Below, one piece after another: positions 29,985 through 38,467 of a DNA stretch of 64,000 bases. This DNA is from Hyphomonas sp. (GTDB taxonomy: Bacteria > Pseudomonadota > Alphaproteobacteria > Caulobacterales > Hyphomonadaceae): the NCBI RefSeq assembly GCF_016125515.1, contig NZ_WGLO01000001.1, forward strand, positions 248,001 to 312,000. Reading direction: 5' to 3'. How positions within the stretch are numbered: the first letter of the stretch is position 1; every line of letters begins with the position of its first letter. Both the position numbers and the translations under genes were made by a program. The notes under the pieces are model-generated. The model saw nothing but the letters and a program-made list of their open reading frames with translations. It was not told where the DNA came from and ran no database searches.

Positions 29985-30062
29985 AGGTAAGATTCGGCGT
30001 GGGTTTCGCGTGAGGAGAGTCTCGGGGCCTCGGTTTCCCTTCGCGTAAGCGGAAATTTACGT

Positions 30063-30077
30063 TGACGTTCGCGTAAG
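30063..30077 (+). promoter_or_regulatory. Candidate MerR/LiuR-type box 1
   Basis: TGACGTTCGCGTAAG lies within a 20-bp dyad (TTACG ... CGTAA, 30057-30076, centre ACGT). TTGACG here could be a -35, with TAGAAA 18 bp on as -10 (30086-30091), the long spacing typical of MerR targets. It is 57 bp before the MerR start. The same motif recurs at 32569. Confidence 0.6.
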
Positions 30078-30134
30078 GGCCGGCTTAGAAAGTTCCCGAA
30101 AAGAAGTCAGCAGACTCGAACGGAGGAACCACCC

Positions 30135-30617
30135 ATGCAACACCGCACCATATCGTCCATCTCTGCCGCCGATTCCCGGACCTACACGATTTCCGAGCTT
30201 GCCCGGGAATTCGGGGTGACGCCGCGCGCTTTGCGCTTCTATGAAGATAAAGACATGCTGCATCCGGCCCGCGACGGCATGATGCGTCTTTATTCCAACC
30301 GGGACCGCGCCCGGCTGACGATCATCGTCCGCCTCAAGCGCCTCGGCCTGCCGCTGGCCGACATCCGCGAAATCCTCGACCTCTACGCCATGAATGACGG
30401 CAAGCGCGCCCAGACCCGCATGATGCTGGAGAAATTCCGAAAACAGGCGGCCGAGCTGGAAATCCAGCGCGGCGATATCGAAACCGCCCTAACGGAACTC
30501 TATAAAGGCATCGAGTGGCTGGAAGATCTGGTTGCCAATAATGGCCCCTCGGAAGAGACCAAACGCCAGGCCGCGGCCTATGAGCAGGTGGCGCGCAAGC
30601 AGCTCGACGAAGTCTGA
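30135..30617 (+). CDS. MerR-family regulator of the beta-oxidation cluster (LiuR-like)
   Basis: The N-terminal MerR helix-turn-helix reads YTISELAREFGVTPRALRFYEDKDML, with a following wing and a C-terminal coiled-coil dimerisation helix. There is no cysteine cluster, so it is not a metal or SoxR-type sensor. It stands immediately before acyl-CoA dehydrogenase genes, as LiuR-like regulators of branched-chain amino acid and fatty acid catabolism do. The ATG at 30135 follows CGGAGG. A strong hairpin 33 bp after the stop may end its transcript. Confidence 0.93.
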   Translation: MQHRTISSISAADSRTYTISELAREFGVTPRALRFYEDKDMLHPARDGMMRLYSNRDRARLTIIVRLKRLGLPLADIREILDLYAMNDGKRAQTRMMLEKFRKQAAELEIQRGDIETALTELYKGIEWLEDLVANNGPSEETKRQAAAYEQVARKQLDEV

Positions 30618-30650
30618 GAACCAGCTACTGATAAAAATGTAGATAAAGAG

Positions 30651-30680
30651 AGCGTGTTGGAATGACTTTTCCAACACGCT
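30651..30680 (+). terminator. Strong symmetrical hairpin between the MerR and acyl-CoA dehydrogenase genes
   Basis: A perfect 12-bp stem, AGCGTGTTGGAA / TTCCAACACGCT, has a 6-nt loop and short flanks AAAGAG and TTG. The T-tract is only two to three bases, so it may be a weak terminator or a processing/attenuation element 48 bp before the next ATG. Confidence 0.6.
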
Positions 30681-30728
30681 TTGCCATTCAGGCTACCAGA
30701 CTTTCCGTTTGCCAGGAGCCTTCCTTCA

Positions 30729-32513
30729 ATGCCCCGTTATGATGCCCCCGTCCGCGACATGCAGTTCATCCTGCACGAGATGCTTCAGCTGCAGAACTAT
30801 TCGAACCTTCCCGGTTTTGCCGATGCGACCCCCGATGTGATCGACCAGATCCTCGATGAGGGCGCCAAGTTCGCCAAGAATGTGCTGTTTCCGTTGAACG
30901 CCGTGGGTGACCGGCAGGGCTGCAAGCGCGCCGACGATGCCAGCGTGAAAACGCCGGACGGGTTCTCGGACGCCTACAAGCAGCTGGTCGAGAATGGTTG
31001 GCCGCTTCTGTCGGCCCATCCGGAAATGGGCGGGCAGGGCCTGCCCCATGCGGTGAACATTGCCTGGACCGAGATGGTCTCGTCCTCGAACATGGCGTTC
31101 GGCATGTATCCCGGCCTCACGCACGGCGCCTATCAGGCGCTGATGGCGGGCGGCTCTGATGAACTCAAGGCCAAGTACGGTCCGAAGATGGCCTCGGCCG
31201 AATGGGCCGGCACGATGAACCTGACCGAGCCGCATTGCGGCACCGACCTTGGCCTGATGAAGACCAAGGCCGTTCCGCAAGCCGACGGCACCTACAAGAT
31301 CACCGGCCAGAAGATCTGGATTTCCGGCGGCGAGCAGGACCTGACCGAAAACATCATTCACCTTGTACTGGCCCGTATCGAGGGCGCACCGGAAGGCATC
31401 AAGGGTGTCTCGCTGTTCGTGGTGCCGAAATATTTTGTCAACGATGACGGCTCACTCGGCGCGCGCAACAGCTGCTCGTGCGGTGGCCTGGAAGAGAAGA
31501 TGGGCATCCACGGCAATGCCACCTGCGTCATGAACTATGATGGCGCGACCGGCTGGCTGGTCGGCGAGGCGCACAAGGGCATGCGCACGATGTTCGTGAT
31601 GATGAACGAGGCCCGCCTCGGCGTCGGCCTTCAAGGCCTGTCGCAGGCGGAGATCGCCTACCAGAATGCACTCGATTTCGCCCGGGACCGGGTTCAGGGC
31701 CGCTCGCTGACCGGCGTGGCCGCGCCCGACAAGCCGGCCGACCCGATCATCGTGCACCCCGATGTGCGCCGGATGCTGCTGGACCAGAAGGCTTTTATCG
31801 AGGGCGCACGCGCCTTCACCTACTGGCTGGCGTTCCAGGGCGACCTTCAGCACAAGTCTCCGGACGAGAAGGTGCGCGAGAAGGCCGGTGACTACATGGC
31901 GCTGCTGACGCCGGTGGTGAAAGCCTACCTCACCCACAAGGGCTATGAGAGCGCGAACCTCGGCCTGCAGGTGCATGGCGGTTCGGGCTTTACTCGCGAA
32001 TGGGGCCTGGAGCAGATCGTCCGCGATTGCCGCATTACCCTGATCTATGAAGGCACCAACGGCGTTCAGGCGCTCGACCTGGTCGGCCGCAAGTTGGGCG
32101 CAAATGGCGGCCGTGCGGTGTTCAGCTTCTTCGGCGAGATCGACGAGTTCATCGCGCAGGCCGAGGGAACGCCCGGTCTGGAACCGTTCCTCGACGGGCT
32201 GAAATCGGTGCGTGCCCAGATGCAGGACGGTACGATGTGGTTGATGCAGAACGGCATGAGCGACTTCAACAATGCCGGCGCCTCCAGCCACGATTACCTT
32301 CACCTCGTCGGCCTGACGGCGCTGGCCTACATGTGGACCCGGATGGCGAAACTGGCTCTGGAGAAGAAAGAGTCCGGCGATCCGTTCTATGCGGCCAAGC
32401 TCGCGACCGGCCGTTATTTCGTCGAGCGTTTGCTGCCCGACGCGGCGGCGCACCTGGCGAAGGTGAAGACCGGCGCGGGCGCGATGATGGCGGTCACGGA
32501 AGCGCAGTTCTGA
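30729..32513 (+). CDS. Acyl-CoA dehydrogenase with extra C-terminal domain (FadE/DmdC-like)
   Basis: The ATG at 30729 (MPRYDAPVRDMQFILHEML) is preceded by AGGAG; a TTG at 30681 falls in the hairpin and is rejected. At 594 residues it is longer than classical 380-residue enzymes and has the added C-terminal domain (PF12806-like) seen in DmdC and similar proteins. The FAD motifs are TEPHCGTDLG and KIWISGGEQD; catalytic Glu441 is in LIYEGTNGVQALDL. It oxidises an acyl-CoA to the enoyl-CoA; the chain type is unknown. It begins the beta-oxidation cluster. Confidence 0.95.
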   Translation: MPRYDAPVRDMQFILHEMLQLQNYSNLPGFADATPDVIDQILDEGAKFAKNVLFPLNAVGDRQGCKRADDASVKTPDGFSDAYKQLVENGWPLLSAHPEMGGQGLPHAVNIAWTEMVSSSNMAFGMYPGLTHGAYQALMAGGSDELKAKYGPKMASAEWAGTMNLTEPHCGTDLGLMKTKAVPQADGTYKITGQKIWISGGEQDLTENIIHLVLARIEGAPEGIKGVSLFVVPKYFVNDDGSLGARNSCSCGGLEEKMGIHGNATCVMNYDGATGWLVGEAHKGMRTMFVMMNEARLGVGLQGLSQAEIAYQNALDFARDRVQGRSLTGVAAPDKPADPIIVHPDVRRMLLDQKAFIEGARAFTYWLAFQGDLQHKSPDEKVREKAGDYMALLTPVVKAYLTHKGYESANLGLQVHGGSGFTREWGLEQIVRDCRITLIYEGTNGVQALDLVGRKLGANGGRAVFSFFGEIDEFIAQAEGTPGLEPFLDGLKSVRAQMQDGTMWLMQNGMSDFNNAGASSHDYLHLVGLTALAYMWTRMAKLALEKKESGDPFYAAKLATGRYFVERLLPDAAAHLAKVKTGAGAMMAVTEAQF

Positions 32514-32524
32514 TATACTGCTGA

Positions 32525-32559
32525 CGCTGCGGCACGGATGGCGAAACCGTGCCGCAGCG
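32525..32559 (+). terminator. Perfect 13-bp hairpin after the first acyl-CoA dehydrogenase
   Basis: CGCTGCGGCACGG / CCGTGCCGCAGCG encloses a 9-nt loop. No T-tract follows, so it may stabilise the upstream mRNA 3' end or act with Rho. Confidence 0.55.
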
Positions 32560-32568
32560 CTTACATGC

Positions 32569-32583
32569 TGACGTGAACGTAAG
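32569..32583 (+). promoter_or_regulatory. Candidate MerR/LiuR-type box 2
   Basis: TGACGTGAACGTAAG matches box 1 at 12 of 15 positions, including TGACGT and CGTAAG, and lies 39 bp upstream of the second acyl-CoA dehydrogenase start. Confidence 0.6.
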
Positions 32584-32622
32584 CGGCAACCCGCGTGCCG
32601 CACCCGGCCTGGAGATTGCCCG

Positions 32623-33798
32623 ATGCAGACTAGCCCCCTCAACGTCCCCAAATCCGCCTGGCGCCAGGATGAGGAGCTCGACATCTTTGCCGATGCCGTG
32701 GGCCAGTTCTTCGAGAAAGAGTGTGTTCCGCATGTGCCGGCCTGGCGCAAGGCCGGCGTCGTGCCCCGCGAGATCTGGAAAAAGGCGGGCGAGATGGGCC
32801 TGCTAGGCGCCTCGGTGCCGGAAGAGTATGGCGGCGCGGGCGGGGACTTCCGCCATGAAGCCATCATCATCGAACAACAGCAGTGGAAGGGCGTCGACGG
32901 GTTCGGCATCACGCTGCACAACGCGATCATCGCGCCCTACATCACCGCCTATGGAACCGAAGAGCAGAAGCGCCGTTGGCTGCCGAAGATCTGCTCGGGC
33001 GAGATCGTCACCGCCATCGCGATGACCGAGCCGGGCGCGGGCTCTGATCTGCAGAACATCAAGACGACGGCCAAGCGCGACGGCAACGAGTATGTGGTCA
33101 ACGGCTCGAAGACCTTCATCTCGAACGGCCAGACCGCGAACCTGATTCTCGTTTGCGCGAAGACCGACCCGACCAAGGGCGCCAAGGGCATCTCGATCGT
33201 CTGTGTCGAGACGGACCCGGTGGAAGGCGACGGCGGCTTCCGCCGCGGCCGTAATCTCGACAAGGTCGGCCAGCACGCCGCCGACACGTCGGAGCTGTTC
33301 TTCGATGACGTCCGCGTGCCGGCCACGCACCTTCTCGGCGACGAGGAGGGCAAGGGTTTCATCCAGTTGATGCAGAAATTGCCGCAGGAGCGCCATATCA
33401 TCGGCCTGCAGGGCATCGGCATGATCGAGCGCGCGATCCACGAAACGGTCGCCTATGTGAAGAGCCGCAAGGCTTTCGGCGGCACGATCTGGGACTTCCA
33501 AAACACGCAGTTCAAGCTGGCCGAGTGCAAGACCGAGGCGACAGTGGCTAAGGTGTTCATGGATCACTGCACCGAACTTCTGCTTCAAGACAAGCTCGAC
33601 GCGGCCACAGCGTCGATGTCGAAATACTGGGTGTCGGACCTCCAGTGCAAGATCATCGACGAGTGCCTGCAGCTGCATGGCGGCTTCGGATATATGGACG
33701 AGTATCCGATTGCGCAGATGTATGCCGATGCCCGCGTCCAGCGTATCTATGGCGGCGCCAACGAAGTCATGAAAATGCTGATCGCGAGGACGCTCTGA
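32623..33798 (+). CDS. Acyl-CoA dehydrogenase, LCAD-like active site
   Basis: The 391-residue enzyme has EPGAGSDLQNI and TFISNGQTANLI in the FAD/substrate region and GGFGYMDEYPIAQMYADARVQRIYGGANEVMK at the C-terminus. The catalytic Glu of medium-chain enzymes is replaced by Gly in YGGANE, but Glu256 in LPQERHIIGLQG sits where long-chain acyl-CoA dehydrogenase keeps its base. This suggests long-chain or branched substrates. GGAG precedes the ATG at 32623. It has its own candidate MerR box and a strong hairpin upstream. Confidence 0.95.
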   Translation: MQTSPLNVPKSAWRQDEELDIFADAVGQFFEKECVPHVPAWRKAGVVPREIWKKAGEMGLLGASVPEEYGGAGGDFRHEAIIIEQQQWKGVDGFGITLHNAIIAPYITAYGTEEQKRRWLPKICSGEIVTAIAMTEPGAGSDLQNIKTTAKRDGNEYVVNGSKTFISNGQTANLILVCAKTDPTKGAKGISIVCVETDPVEGDGGFRRGRNLDKVGQHAADTSELFFDDVRVPATHLLGDEEGKGFIQLMQKLPQERHIIGLQGIGMIERAIHETVAYVKSRKAFGGTIWDFQNTQFKLAECKTEATVAKVFMDHCTELLLQDKLDAATASMSKYWVSDLQCKIIDECLQLHGGFGYMDEYPIAQMYADARVQRIYGGANEVMKMLIARTL

Positions 33799-33804
33799 GC
33801 CATC

Positions 33805-34239
33805 ATGCCCGATAGGCATCTCCTTCGCGAAGTTTTTCCCAAGCCGGCGCCAAGTTCGGTGTCGCTTGGTTTTGAACTGCTTGATCTGGATGCCCGGGCC
33901 ATGACGACACGGATCCGTTTCGACGGCCGGGCCGAGTTCACCAATCCGGCCGGCTTCATCCAGGGCGGCTATCTCGTCGCCATGATGGACGATGCCATCG
34001 GCATGTTGACGACCGTTAAGGCGGGAACCTCGAAGCTGCCCTCGACGGTCGACCTTCACACCCACTTCCTGCGCCCGGTGCGCGTCGGCCCCATCGAGGT
34101 CGTCGCGCGCTTGCGCAATATCGGCCGGGCGATGGTGTTCGCCGAAGCCGACCTCTTCGACGCGCGCGGTAAGGAAGCCGCCCGCGCCACTGCCTCCCTT
34201 ACGCTCAATCCGGTGTCGAAGCCGGCCATTACATCCTGA
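33805..34239 (+). CDS. PaaI-family hotdog thioesterase
   Basis: The 144-residue single hotdog protein has FTNPAGFIQGGYLVAMMDDAIGML, the PaaI/acyl-CoA thioesterase motif with the active-site region, and DLHTHFLRPVRVGPIEV. It starts 6 bp after the acyl-CoA dehydrogenase stop, so it is co-translated with it. It probably releases CoA from stalled or unusual acyl-CoA intermediates. Specificity cannot be read from sequence. Confidence 0.92.
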   Translation: MPDRHLLREVFPKPAPSSVSLGFELLDLDARAMTTRIRFDGRAEFTNPAGFIQGGYLVAMMDDAIGMLTTVKAGTSKLPSTVDLHTHFLRPVRVGPIEVVARLRNIGRAMVFAEADLFDARGKEAARATASLTLNPVSKPAITS

Positions 34240-34260: not shown

Positions 34261-35466
34261 ATGCCCGAAGCCTATATCTACGACGCCGTGCGCACGCCCC
34301 GCGGCAAAGGCAAGTCCACCGGCGCCCTGCACGAGATCACAGCGCTGAGCCTCGGCACGCAGGTTCTGCAGGCCATCCGTGAGCGGAACAACCTTGACAC
34401 ATCGAAAGTGGACGATGTGGTGTTCGGCTGCGTCTCGCCAGTCGGCGAGCAGGGCGGCGACATCGCCCGGATCGCAGTGCTGAACGCCGAGTATGCCGAA
34501 ACGACGGCCGGCGTGCAGGTTGACCGGTTCTGTGCTTCGGGCCTTGAAGCCTGCAACATGGCCGCCTCGAAAGTGATGACCGGTGAAGCCGATATGGCCA
34601 TCGGCGGCGGCGTCGAAAGTATGAGCCGCGTGCCGATGGGCGCCGCCGGCGGGGCCTGGTCGACCGATCCGCAGATCGCGCTGAAATCCTATTTCACGCC
34701 GCAAGGCATCGGCGCCGACACGATCGCCACCAAGTACGGCTTCAGCCGTGATGACGTGGATGCCTTCGCCCTCGAAAGCCAGCGCCGTGCCGCGCAGGCC
34801 TGGAAGGAAGGCCGCTTCAAGAAATCCATCGTTCCGGTAAAGGACCAGATGGGCGGCATCCGCCTTGCGCACGACGAGCACATGCGCCCGGACACGACCA
34901 TGCAGACCCTGGCCGCGCTCGATCCGTCCTTTGCCGGGATGGGCGCGATGGGCTTCGATGAAGTCATCAAGCAGCGCTATCCGGAACTCGAGAAGATCAA
35001 CCACGTGCACCATGCCGGCAACTCGTCGGGCATCGTGGATGGCGCGTCGGCCGTTCTCTTCGGTTCGAAGGAAATGGGCGAAGCCATGGGCCTGAAGCCG
35101 CGCGCCCGCGTGCGCGCAATGGCTTCCATCGGTTCGGAGCCGGGCATCATGCTGACCGGCCCGACCTATGTGACCCAGAAGGTCCTGAAAAAGGCCGGCA
35201 TGAATGTCGAAGACATCGACATCTATGAACTGAACGAAGCCTTCGCGTCGGTCGTCATGTTGATGATGAAACTGCTCAACATCCCGCACGAGAAAATGAA
35301 CGTGAACGGCGGCGCCATTGCGATGGGCCACCCGCTTGGCGCCACGGGCGGCATGATCCTCGGCACGGTGCTCGATGAACTTGAGCGCTCTGATAAGGAA
35401 ACGGGCCTCATCACCCTGTGCGTTGGCGCAGGCATGGGAACCGCAACGATCATCGAGCGGGTCTAG
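34261..35466 (+). CDS. Acetyl-CoA acyltransferase (thiolase)
   Basis: The 401-residue thiolase has nucleophile Cys91 in [16 protein letters not shown], His in [15 protein letters not shown] and the second Cys in LCVGAGMGT. It can act degradatively (3-ketoacyl-CoA to acetyl-CoA) in the FadA role, pairing with the FadJ-type gene two genes downstream. AAAGGAG precedes the ATG. It belongs to the plus-strand operon from 32623 to 38467. Confidence 0.95.
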
Positions 35467-35478
35467 GTCCGTTCACGG

Positions 35479-36207
35479 ATGGCTCCGGAAGACAAATACA
35501 GCGCTCTGTCGCCGGCTTCGATCCTCAAGACGCTTTACCGTCTTGAGGATCGCGTTGTCGAGCGTTTTCCGGAGCGGGGCCTGGCCAGCGTGGTGCGCGA
35601 TCTCGGCCGCGTCGCGAAGGTGCATGTGCAGCGCGTCGGAGATGTCGCCCGCCCGCACCTTCTGCTTCGCATTCTCGTCGCGCTCGTGCTGGTGCTTGGC
35701 CTCACGGTGACCGGCATCGGCGTTGCCCAGAAGGTCGAGATGCTGACCGGCCCTGATGGCGGGCAGCTCAGTTTCGAAGGCATTGAGGCGCTCGCCAACA
35801 TCCTGATCTTGATGGGCGCGGCGATCTGGTTCCTGCTCAATCTGGAAGCGCGCATCAAGCGGGCCCAAGCGCTGACCGCTTTGCACGAACTTCGTTCGAT
35901 GGCGCACGTTATCGACATGCACCAGCTGACCAAGGATCCGCCGAGCCTGCTCGGTTCGGGGCGCACGGCCTCGTCGCCGGAGCGGGACCTCACCCCGTCT
36001 GACCTGATGCGCTATCTCGATTACTGTACCGAAATGCTGTCGCTGATCGGCAAGCTCGCCGCGCTCTACATGCAAGGCCTGCGCGACGAAGTGATCATCC
36101 ACACCGTTAACGAAATCGAAGGCCTGACCACAAACCTTGCCAGCAAGATCTGGCAGAAGATCATGATCATCCGTTCCGAGATCGATCTGCCTTCCGCCAA
36201 AACCTGA
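35479..36207 (+). CDS. Two-TM membrane protein of unknown function inside the beta-oxidation operon
   Basis: This 242-residue protein starts 12 bp after the thiolase stop. It has two predicted membrane helices (about residues 66-86, LLLRILVALVLVLGLTVTGI, and 107-124, ALANILILMGAAIWFLLNLE). An N-terminal amphipathic, basic part (1-62) and a C-terminal helical region (125-242, HVIDMHQLTK, TEMLSLIGKLAALYMQGL) face the cytoplasm if both ends are inside. I do not recognise any domain. Codon use matches its neighbours. The position between FadA- and FadJ-type genes implies a role tied to fatty acid handling at the membrane, but that is inference. Confidence 0.85.
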   Translation: MAPEDKYSALSPASILKTLYRLEDRVVERFPERGLASVVRDLGRVAKVHVQRVGDVARPHLLLRILVALVLVLGLTVTGIGVAQKVEMLTGPDGGQLSFEGIEALANILILMGAAIWFLLNLEARIKRAQALTALHELRSMAHVIDMHQLTKDPPSLLGSGRTASSPERDLTPSDLMRYLDYCTEMLSLIGKLAALYMQGLRDEVIIHTVNEIEGLTTNLASKIWQKIMIIRSEIDLPSAKT

Positions 36208-36232: not shown

Positions 36233-38467
36233 ATGAAGCTCGAAACATTTGGATGGGACATCGACGCAGACGGCATCGCACATGCGGTGTTCGATGTGCC
36301 GGGCCGCAGCATGAACACGCTGACGGGCAAGGCCGTTGCGGACATCATCGCCATCACCCAGGAAGTTGCCAGCAATGACGCTATCAAGGGCCTCGTTATT
36401 TCTTCCGGAAAGGCAAGCGGCTTCTGCGCCGGCGCTGACCTGGGCGAGATGGGTAGCCGAGCCGGCGGTGGCGCCGAGACCAAGAAGAAGTCCGAGGCCG
36501 AACTGAAGAAAGAACAGTTCGATGCGGGTTTCTCGCTGAACGGCACGCTGCGCAAGCTCGAGACCTGCGGCAAGCCGGTCGCGGTGGCGCTGAACGGCCT
36601 CGCGCTGGGCGGCGGTCTGGAAGTGGCGCTCGCGTGCCACTACCGCGTTGCGGCGAATGACAATCCGAAGCTGCAATTCGGTCTGCCGGAAGCCAAGATC
36701 GGCCTCCTGCCGGGCGCCGGCGGCACGCAGCGCTTGCCGCGCCTGGTCGGCGTTCAGGCGGCCCTGCCACTGATCCTTCAAGGCGAGAGCTTCACGGCCG
36801 AGCAGGCGAAGGCGATGGGCGTGGTGCAGGAACTTGCGCCGTCCTCGGAAACTGTCGCGCGGGCAAAGGCTTGGGTGAAAGCCAATCCGAAGGCGAAGGC
36901 GCCTTGGGACGAGAAGGGCTTCAAGGTACCGGGCGGCGTGCCGCATAAGTCTCCGGGCGTGGGCCAGGTCGCCACGATGGCGAACATGATGCTCGCTTCG
37001 AAAACCTATGGGAACTATCCTGCGCAGAAGAATATCCTGTCCTGCATCTATGAAGGCATCCAGGTGCCGATCGATGCCGGCCTGCGCATCGAGACGCGCT
37101 ATTTCATCAACACCCAGCAGCGCCCGGAAGCGAAGGCGATGATCCGCTCGCTGTTCCTGTCGATGCAGGAGCTCGGCAAGGGTGCAAACCGTCCGGCGGG
37201 TCATCCGAAGACGGAGTTCAAGAAGATTGCGGTCATCGGCGCGGGCCTGATGGGCGCCGGCATTGCCTACGTTCAGGCAAAGGCTGGCATCCCGACCGTT
37301 CTGGTCGATGTGTCGAAGGAAGCTGCCGATAAGGGCAAGCAATACTCCGTCCGGCTCGTCGAGAAGGATGTCTCGCGCGGCAAGCTGTCGAAAGAGAAGG
37401 GCGATGCGTTGCTCGCCCTGATCACGACCACCGACAACTATGATGACTTCAAGGGCGCAGATCTCGTGGTCGAGGCCGTGTTCGAGAATGAAGAGCTGAA
37501 AGCGAAGATCACCCAGCAGGCCGAAGCCGTGCTCGGTGAGGACGCCGTGTTCGGATCGAACACCTCGACGCTGCCGATCACCGGCCTCGCCAAGGCGTCG
37601 AAGCGCCCGGCGAACTTCATCGGCATCCACTTCTTCTCGCCGGTCGAGCGCATGGGTCTCGTCGAGATCATCATGGGCAAGGAAACCAGCGAAGCGACGC
37701 TGGCAAAGTCGATCGACTATGTCCTTGCCATCCGCAAGACGCCGATCGTCGTCAGTGACAGCCGCGGCTTCTACACCTCGCGCTGCTTCGGCACCTACAC
37801 GCGCGAAGGCATGGAAATGCTCTCGGAAGGCATCGCCCCCGCGATCATCGAGAATGTGGGCCGTCAGGCCGGCATGCCGATGGGCGCACTGGAAGTGTCC
37901 GACTCCGTCGGTCTCGATACCGCGCTCAAAGTGACGCGCGCGATGGCGGAAGCGACCGGTATCGATCTGCAGTCGGATGAACGCACGCAGTTCCTTGCCT
38001 GGTTGGTCGAAGACCAGGGCCGCGTTGGCCGCAAGGCAGGCAAGGGCTTCTACGACTATGACGAGAAGGGCAAACCCGCGCGCCTCTGGCCGGACATCAA
38101 CAAGCAGCTCACCGTCAAGATCGACGAATGTCCGCCGGCCCTGAAGAAGGAGCTGACCAACCGCTTCCTCGTCCGTCAGGCCGTTGAAGTGGCGCGCTGT
38201 TTCGAGGAAGGCGTGATCACCGATGCCCGCGACGCCGATATCGGCTCGATCCTCGCCTGGGGCTTTGCGCCCTTCACCGGCGGTTGCTGCTCCTACATCG
38301 ACCTGATCTGGGGCATCAAGGCATTCGTCGCCGAAGCCGATAAGCTCGCCGACAAGTATGGCGAACGGTTCCGTCCGAATGCCCTGCTGCGCGACATGGC
38401 CGCCAAGGGCGAAGGCTTCTACGACCGTTTCCCGCCCGCCGGCACCAAGGCGAAAGTTGCTGCGTAA
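36233..38467 (+). CDS. Multifunctional enoyl-CoA hydratase / 3-hydroxyacyl-CoA dehydrogenase (FadJ/FadB type)
   Basis: The N-terminal 190 residues form the crotonase fold ([16 protein letters not shown], oxyanion hole; [21 protein letters not shown] with the second catalytic Glu). The C-terminal half has the NAD-binding [35 protein letters not shown], and catalytic His in [20 protein letters not shown]. It carries out steps 2 and 3 of beta-oxidation and presumably forms a complex with the upstream thiolase. CAAGGAG precedes the ATG at 36233. A bidirectional terminator follows. Confidence 0.96.

Follow-up and report, generated by a model that had tools for sequence, protein, structure and literature searches.

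Candidate operators of a LiuR-type MerR protein upstream of beta-oxidation genes in Hyphomonas

Results

Gene cluster and boxes in the window

The window, that is, the whole stretch of Hyphomonas sp. DNA that was analysed, comprises 64,000 nucleotides (contig NZ_WGLO01000001.1, positions 248,001 to 312,000). The part described here carries a gene for a MerR-family regulator (merR), followed by a cluster of genes for fatty acid oxidation, with palindromic ACG-N4-CGT boxes before merR and before the second acyl-CoA dehydrogenase gene (acd2). The features are as follows.

30033..30050, + strand: weaker upstream box, another TTCGCGTAAG (score 13.5), present in some Hyphomonas lineages only, as judged by eye in the alignment
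30055..30078, + strand: putative autoregulatory operator of two overlapping ACG-N4-CGT boxes (30055-30072 and 30061-30078; scores 16.2 and 22.6)
30062..30067, + strand: putative -35 element of merR, TTGACG, within the operator
30085..30090, + strand: putative -10 element of merR, TTAGAA
30135..30617, + strand: merR, 160-aa MerR-family regulator of the LiuR type (Pfam MerR_1, 70.1 bits, and MerR-DNA-bind, 44.1 bits, both over the Pfam cut-offs)
30729..32513, + strand: acd1, located downstream of merR, acyl-CoA dehydrogenase whose C-terminal domain is PF12806 (Pfam)
32561..32566, + strand: putative -10 element of acd2, TTACAT, directly upstream of the box
32567..32584, + strand: putative acd2 operator, GCTGACGTGAACGTAAGC (score 24.5)
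32623..33798, + strand: acd2, acyl-CoA dehydrogenase (Pfam)
33805..34239, + strand: hotdog-fold thioesterase (TIGR00369 over cut-off; 4HBT)
34261..35466, + strand: thiolase, acetyl-CoA C-acetyltransferase (NF006090, 715.5 bits, cut-off 514)
36233..38467, + strand: FadJ/FadB-like multifunctional beta-oxidation protein (Pfam ECH_1, 3HCDH_N, 3HCDH)

The gene order of the cluster was the same in the 20 Hyphomonas loci examined, except for loci that end early and for a gene between the thiolase gene and fadJ (35479-36207), whose 242-aa product had no Pfam or NCBIfam match at E 0.001. This gene was present in 3 of the 20 long Hyphomonas loci and absent, with the thiolase gene and fadJ adjacent, in 16, while one locus stops before fadJ. 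The FadJ/FadB-like protein itself obtained 574.4 bits with the NCBIfam FadJ model, which is under the cut-off of 869. An 11-bp inverted repeat, CTGCGGCACGG / CCGTGCCGCAG, with a 9-base loop (32527-32557), is located between acd1 and the acd2 promoter and may represent a terminator that lacks a T run.

Each of the 37 genomes of the genus that were searched, the own one among them, encodes an orthologue of the MerR protein with 80–100% identity, and the own genome has only three MerR_1 proteins. The merR locus of the window also has a 97% identical counterpart on two contigs (L231 and L232) filed as Acidobacteria and Candidatus Sulfopaludibacter; these contigs are probably mis-binned or mislabelled Hyphomonas DNA.

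Structure and scoring of the box

In the first-pass annotation, a 15-bp motif had been placed before merR (TGACGTTCGCGTAAG, 30063-30077) and before acd2 (TGACGTGAACGTAAG, 32569-32583), with 12 of 15 bases identical. Both positions, on the + strand, and the degree of identity were confirmed, the three differing positions being the central ones. The two 15-mers are parts of an ACG-N4-CGT palindrome, in which the half-sites ACG and CGT are 4 bases apart, and the natural unit is this 18-bp palindrome and not the 15-mer. The exact 15-mer pattern gave two matches in the window against a mean of 0.00 in 100 dinucleotide shuffles; the statement that the motif occurs nowhere else holds for the window, but not for the genome, where the palindrome occupies eight places. 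When up to two mismatches were allowed, three window matches were obtained against 1.6 expected, which is unremarkable, the third of them being the acd2 site read on the opposite strand. The real support for the boxes is their conservation and genome-wide recurrence, rather than the count in the window.

For scoring, a matrix was built from fourteen words out of these Hyphomonas promoters, and a box was called where a matrix score of 15 or higher was reached no more than 200 bp from the gene start, conditions under which shuffles led to at most 0.05 expected boxes per target set. Note that the Hyphomonas counts given below for merR, acd2, etfB, acd3 and thl2 are in-sample, these being the training promoters of the matrix, and that the Hyphomonas genomes are not phylogenetically independent.

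The merR and acd2 promoters

A box scoring at least 15 was present upstream of merR in all 36 other Hyphomonas genomes (in-sample), and alignment of the 37 loci (these 36 and the window) revealed a nearly invariant operator core with variable flanks. The two overlapping boxes of this operator have one half-site in common, which results in three half-sites with a 6-bp period. The putative promoter elements are weak, and no promoter was found by a sigma-70 consensus scan. The long spacing characteristic of MerR-regulated promoters, which the first-pass annotation had ascribed to merR, was not borne out: the distance from TTGACG to a YTANNN hexamer was 17 bp in 31 of the 37 loci, and the other six had AGTCTG instead of the -10-like hexamer at this distance. 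The merR start codon lies 33–36 bp from TTGACG in 23 of 37 loci, which suggests a nearly leaderless merR transcript. As for acd2, loci from 20 of the 36 other genomes were examined, and the box was present in all 20 (in-sample); the hexamer directly preceding the box fitted YTANAW in 19 of 21 loci and did not fit it in two.

Recurrence of the box in the genome and the genus

A scan of the own genome (3.22 Mb, 26 contigs) detected the exact palindrome TKACGYNNRCGTMA at eight distinct places. Five of them are located upstream of merR, acd2, etfB-etfA-hbd, acd3-acd4 and a second thiolase gene (thl2). The remaining three are of the TGACGCNNGCGTCA type and lie before a monooxygenase-like gene, near glnB and near a P450-like gene (genes named by eye). 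An alternative form of the motif was also found at eight places, comprising the same five and three others inside predicted reading frames (L001, L004 and L006).

The TGACGCNNGCGTCA palindromes of the own genome are at C19:3339, C21:39636 and C21:159402 (loci L081-L083). Palindromes of this type were also counted in three single-contig relatives, with nine in G016, four in G018 and four in G019. They differ from the LiuR-type box and may be the sites of another factor. Among the ten exact palindromes in each of G018 and G019, six were not of this type, and five of those six were located, by position, at merR, acd2, etfB, acd3 and thl2; the sixth precedes a thiolase gene in G018 and a short-chain dehydrogenase gene in G019, the latter with a presumed role in beta-oxidation. 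The exact palindromes of G016 not belonging to the TGACGCNNGCGTCA type (4 of 13) were those at acd2, thl2, acd3 and position 1599962, and its merR and etfB boxes gave no exact palindrome match.

Footprints of 30 loci each, own included, were assembled for etfB, acd3 and thl2 from the 37, 35 and 37 of 37 genomes with a match. In these in-sample sets, a box scoring at least 15 was present upstream of etfB in 29 loci, the single miss (L135) starting near a contig end, and upstream of both acd3 and thl2 in 30 of 30. The control genes acd1, thl and hotdog had such a box in 0 of 20 orthologous upstream regions each; since acd1 has no box of its own, it is probably read from the merR promoter.

Palindromes with one mismatch were uninformative as a class (73 forward matches in the own genome, exact ones included, versus 59 in the reversed control), and among the matches listed and read they were mostly inside predicted genes. 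One site of this class, C1:244055, precedes a further acyl-CoA dehydrogenase gene outside the window, acd5 (C1:242872-243984; loci L088 and L366). Of 30 Hyphomonas loci, 29 have this degenerate box, which in the own genome lies about 86 bp upstream of the gene and scores 15.4; the remaining locus is cut by a contig end. The gene was absent from the training set of the matrix. Because such a conserved site was found among the one-mismatch matches, the target list is to be considered a minimum. By eye, a CarD-like gene begins on the far side of the acd5 box region.

The NAD-glutamate dehydrogenase gene, gdhZ, was rejected as a target: its own site, 130 bp before the gene (L110:5455-5478; own C1:20454), scores 21.5, yet a score of at least 15 was reached in only 2 of 30 loci, own included. 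The gdhZ box is a recent gain or a chance occurrence.

The recurrence upstream of catabolic genes, whose absence would have refuted the first-pass proposal, was found. As judged from sequence, it is well supported that the boxes mark a LiuR-type regulon over the beta-oxidation genes merR-acd1, acd2-hotdog-thiolase-fadJ, etfB-etfA-hbd, acd3-acd4, thl2 and acd5.

Association of the box with merR outside the genus

Outside the training genus, a box scoring at least 15 was located within 200 bp of merR in 61 of 69 loci (L242-L310) and was lacking in eight, the shuffle expectation being 0.1 for all 80 loci (merR upstream). Among order-level relatives, it was present in 13 of 14 loci (the best 14 of 24 genomes searched) and lacking in one. 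Plasmid-collection relatives had it in 6 of the 10 examined, out of 139 records with a match; two of the four records lacking a box of at least 15 (Alloyangia and Paracoccus) adjoin beta-oxidation genes. The six include all three records with a liu-linked MerR gene (one Marinobacter and two Vibrio, the gene standing beside ivd and mccB homologues), upstream of which the Hyphomonas-trained matrix gave scores of 21–26. The assignment of the box to the MerR protein, as proposed in the first-pass annotation, is supported by this company in and beyond the genus.

Relation to LiuR and the leucine genes

The Hyphomonas protein belongs to the same family as LiuR of the Shewanella/Vibrio/Marinobacter type, with 40–48% identity over 102–129 residues to four gammaproteobacterial members (E 5e-34 to 3e-28). 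Its length of 160 aa is within the approximately 130–160 aa expected, the liu-linked relatives having 127–141 aa. It matched the liu-linked MerR proteins with E values of 4e-29 to 3e-28, versus 2.5e-4 and 0.029 for the two paralogues of its own genome, while the deep branches of a 24-row tree remained unsettled. A sequence search of solved structures returned only general MerR relatives.

The target set of LiuR is the leucine/branched-chain regulon, in contrast to the beta-oxidation genes in Hyphomonas, where none of the 300-bp regions upstream of ivd in 30 loci contained a box scoring at least 15; one of these loci did reach this score at another place in its approximately 4 kb. The own ivd gene, which owes its name to a Marinobacter gene annotated as isovaleryl-CoA dehydrogenase (72% match), forms part of an ivd-mccB-mccA group in whose surrounding 19 kb no match scored at least 9. 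The description of the regulon as LiuR-like can thus be retained for the protein type, the DNA box and its recurrence at catabolic genes, but not for the leucine/isovalerate genes. On the evidence of family and box, the regulator is of the LiuR type, but its predicted regulon is beta-oxidation and not leucine/isovalerate use.

Discussion

The boxes are best explained as operators for the LiuR-type MerR protein encoded beside them, which would act as a repressor of beta-oxidation; we give this reading a probability of roughly 87%. A dimer of the protein is expected to bind the palindrome and to repress transcription, a direction of control suggested by the overlap of the box with the -35-like TTGACG at merR and by its location directly after the -10-like hexamer at acd2. 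The positions of both boxes fit steric repression. An acyl-CoA arising from fatty acid breakdown would relieve the repression, and the protein would presumably regulate its own gene via the overlapping array at merR. At the same time, the etfB and acd3 boxes are located, as judged by eye, upstream of a possible -35 element, and this position may leave room for activation at these two genes. A more elaborate scheme, in which a dedicated beta-oxidation switch without leucine genes blocks RNA polymerase at merR and acd2 and assists it at etfB and acd3, is considered rather unlikely.

A classic MerR mechanism, in which a dimer sitting between the -35 and -10 elements of an over-long spacer untwists the DNA and thereby activates transcription, would agree with the protein family and with the partial coverage of the spacer by the merR box. 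MerR-type activators are described as using a 19–20 bp spacer (PMC5045206), whereas the merR promoters, with their putative elements, have 17 bp in the 31 unambiguous loci, the other six being ambiguous; moreover, neither the acd2 box, downstream of its -10-like hexamer, nor the etfB and acd3 boxes have the position required, and we regard this mechanism as very unlikely. It is no more credible that some other regulator binds the sites and that merR is near them by coincidence. Factors with similar half-sites are suggested by the TGACGCNNGCGTCA palindromes elsewhere, but merR has the box at its side in other genera as well (13/14 and 61/69 loci), and so do the three liu-linked gammaproteobacterial genes.

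Control of liu/ivd as the main job of the protein, that is, a leucine/isovalerate regulon as in gammaproteobacteria, is recommended by the LiuR-like box and protein and by a precedent in the alphaproteobacterium Rhodospirillum rubrum, for which an ILV box has been described in the upstream regions of ivd, liuR and liu genes (PMC7238569). The ivd regions of Hyphomonas, with no box in any of the 30 and none around the own genes, largely refute it for this genus, leaving it most improbable. Finally, the insignificant window count at two mismatches would be compatible with a chance recurrence of a GC-rich word, but the genus-wide conservation seen in the footprints, together with the empty control genes, refutes this explanation, whose likelihood is practically negligible.

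The preferred reading, a LiuR-type repressor of beta-oxidation, can be compared with several known systems. LiuR orthologues are reported to control fatty-acid degradation genes in alphaproteobacteria, in work by Kazakov and colleagues in 2009. Regulators so defined would share function, bacterial class and regulator type with the Hyphomonas protein, whose boxes likewise stand upstream of beta-oxidation genes. In Shewanella, LiuR is described as a MerR-family repressor (PMC3223726), and it is listed under branched-chain amino acid use in PMC5343134. The regulators of fatty-acid degradation named in the latter source, FadR (GntR family), PsrA and FadP (both TetR family), are functional analogues from other protein families. 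The heavy-metal activators CueR, ZntR and MerR have a related DNA-binding domain, but their 19–20 bp spacer was not found in Hyphomonas, and the NCBIfam scores were far below their cut-offs.

A full-text literature search, limited in scope, found no publication on transcriptional regulators of fatty acid oxidation in Hyphomonas. The present analysis names a likely regulator of fatty-acid use in this genus, together with its operator and six operons as a first set of targets. A control circuit of this kind, with a scattered set of fatty-acid-burning genes under one MerR-type regulator, is not without precedent in bacteria. It would provide a clear case in which the box of a regulator has been kept while the pathway under its control differs between bacterial classes.
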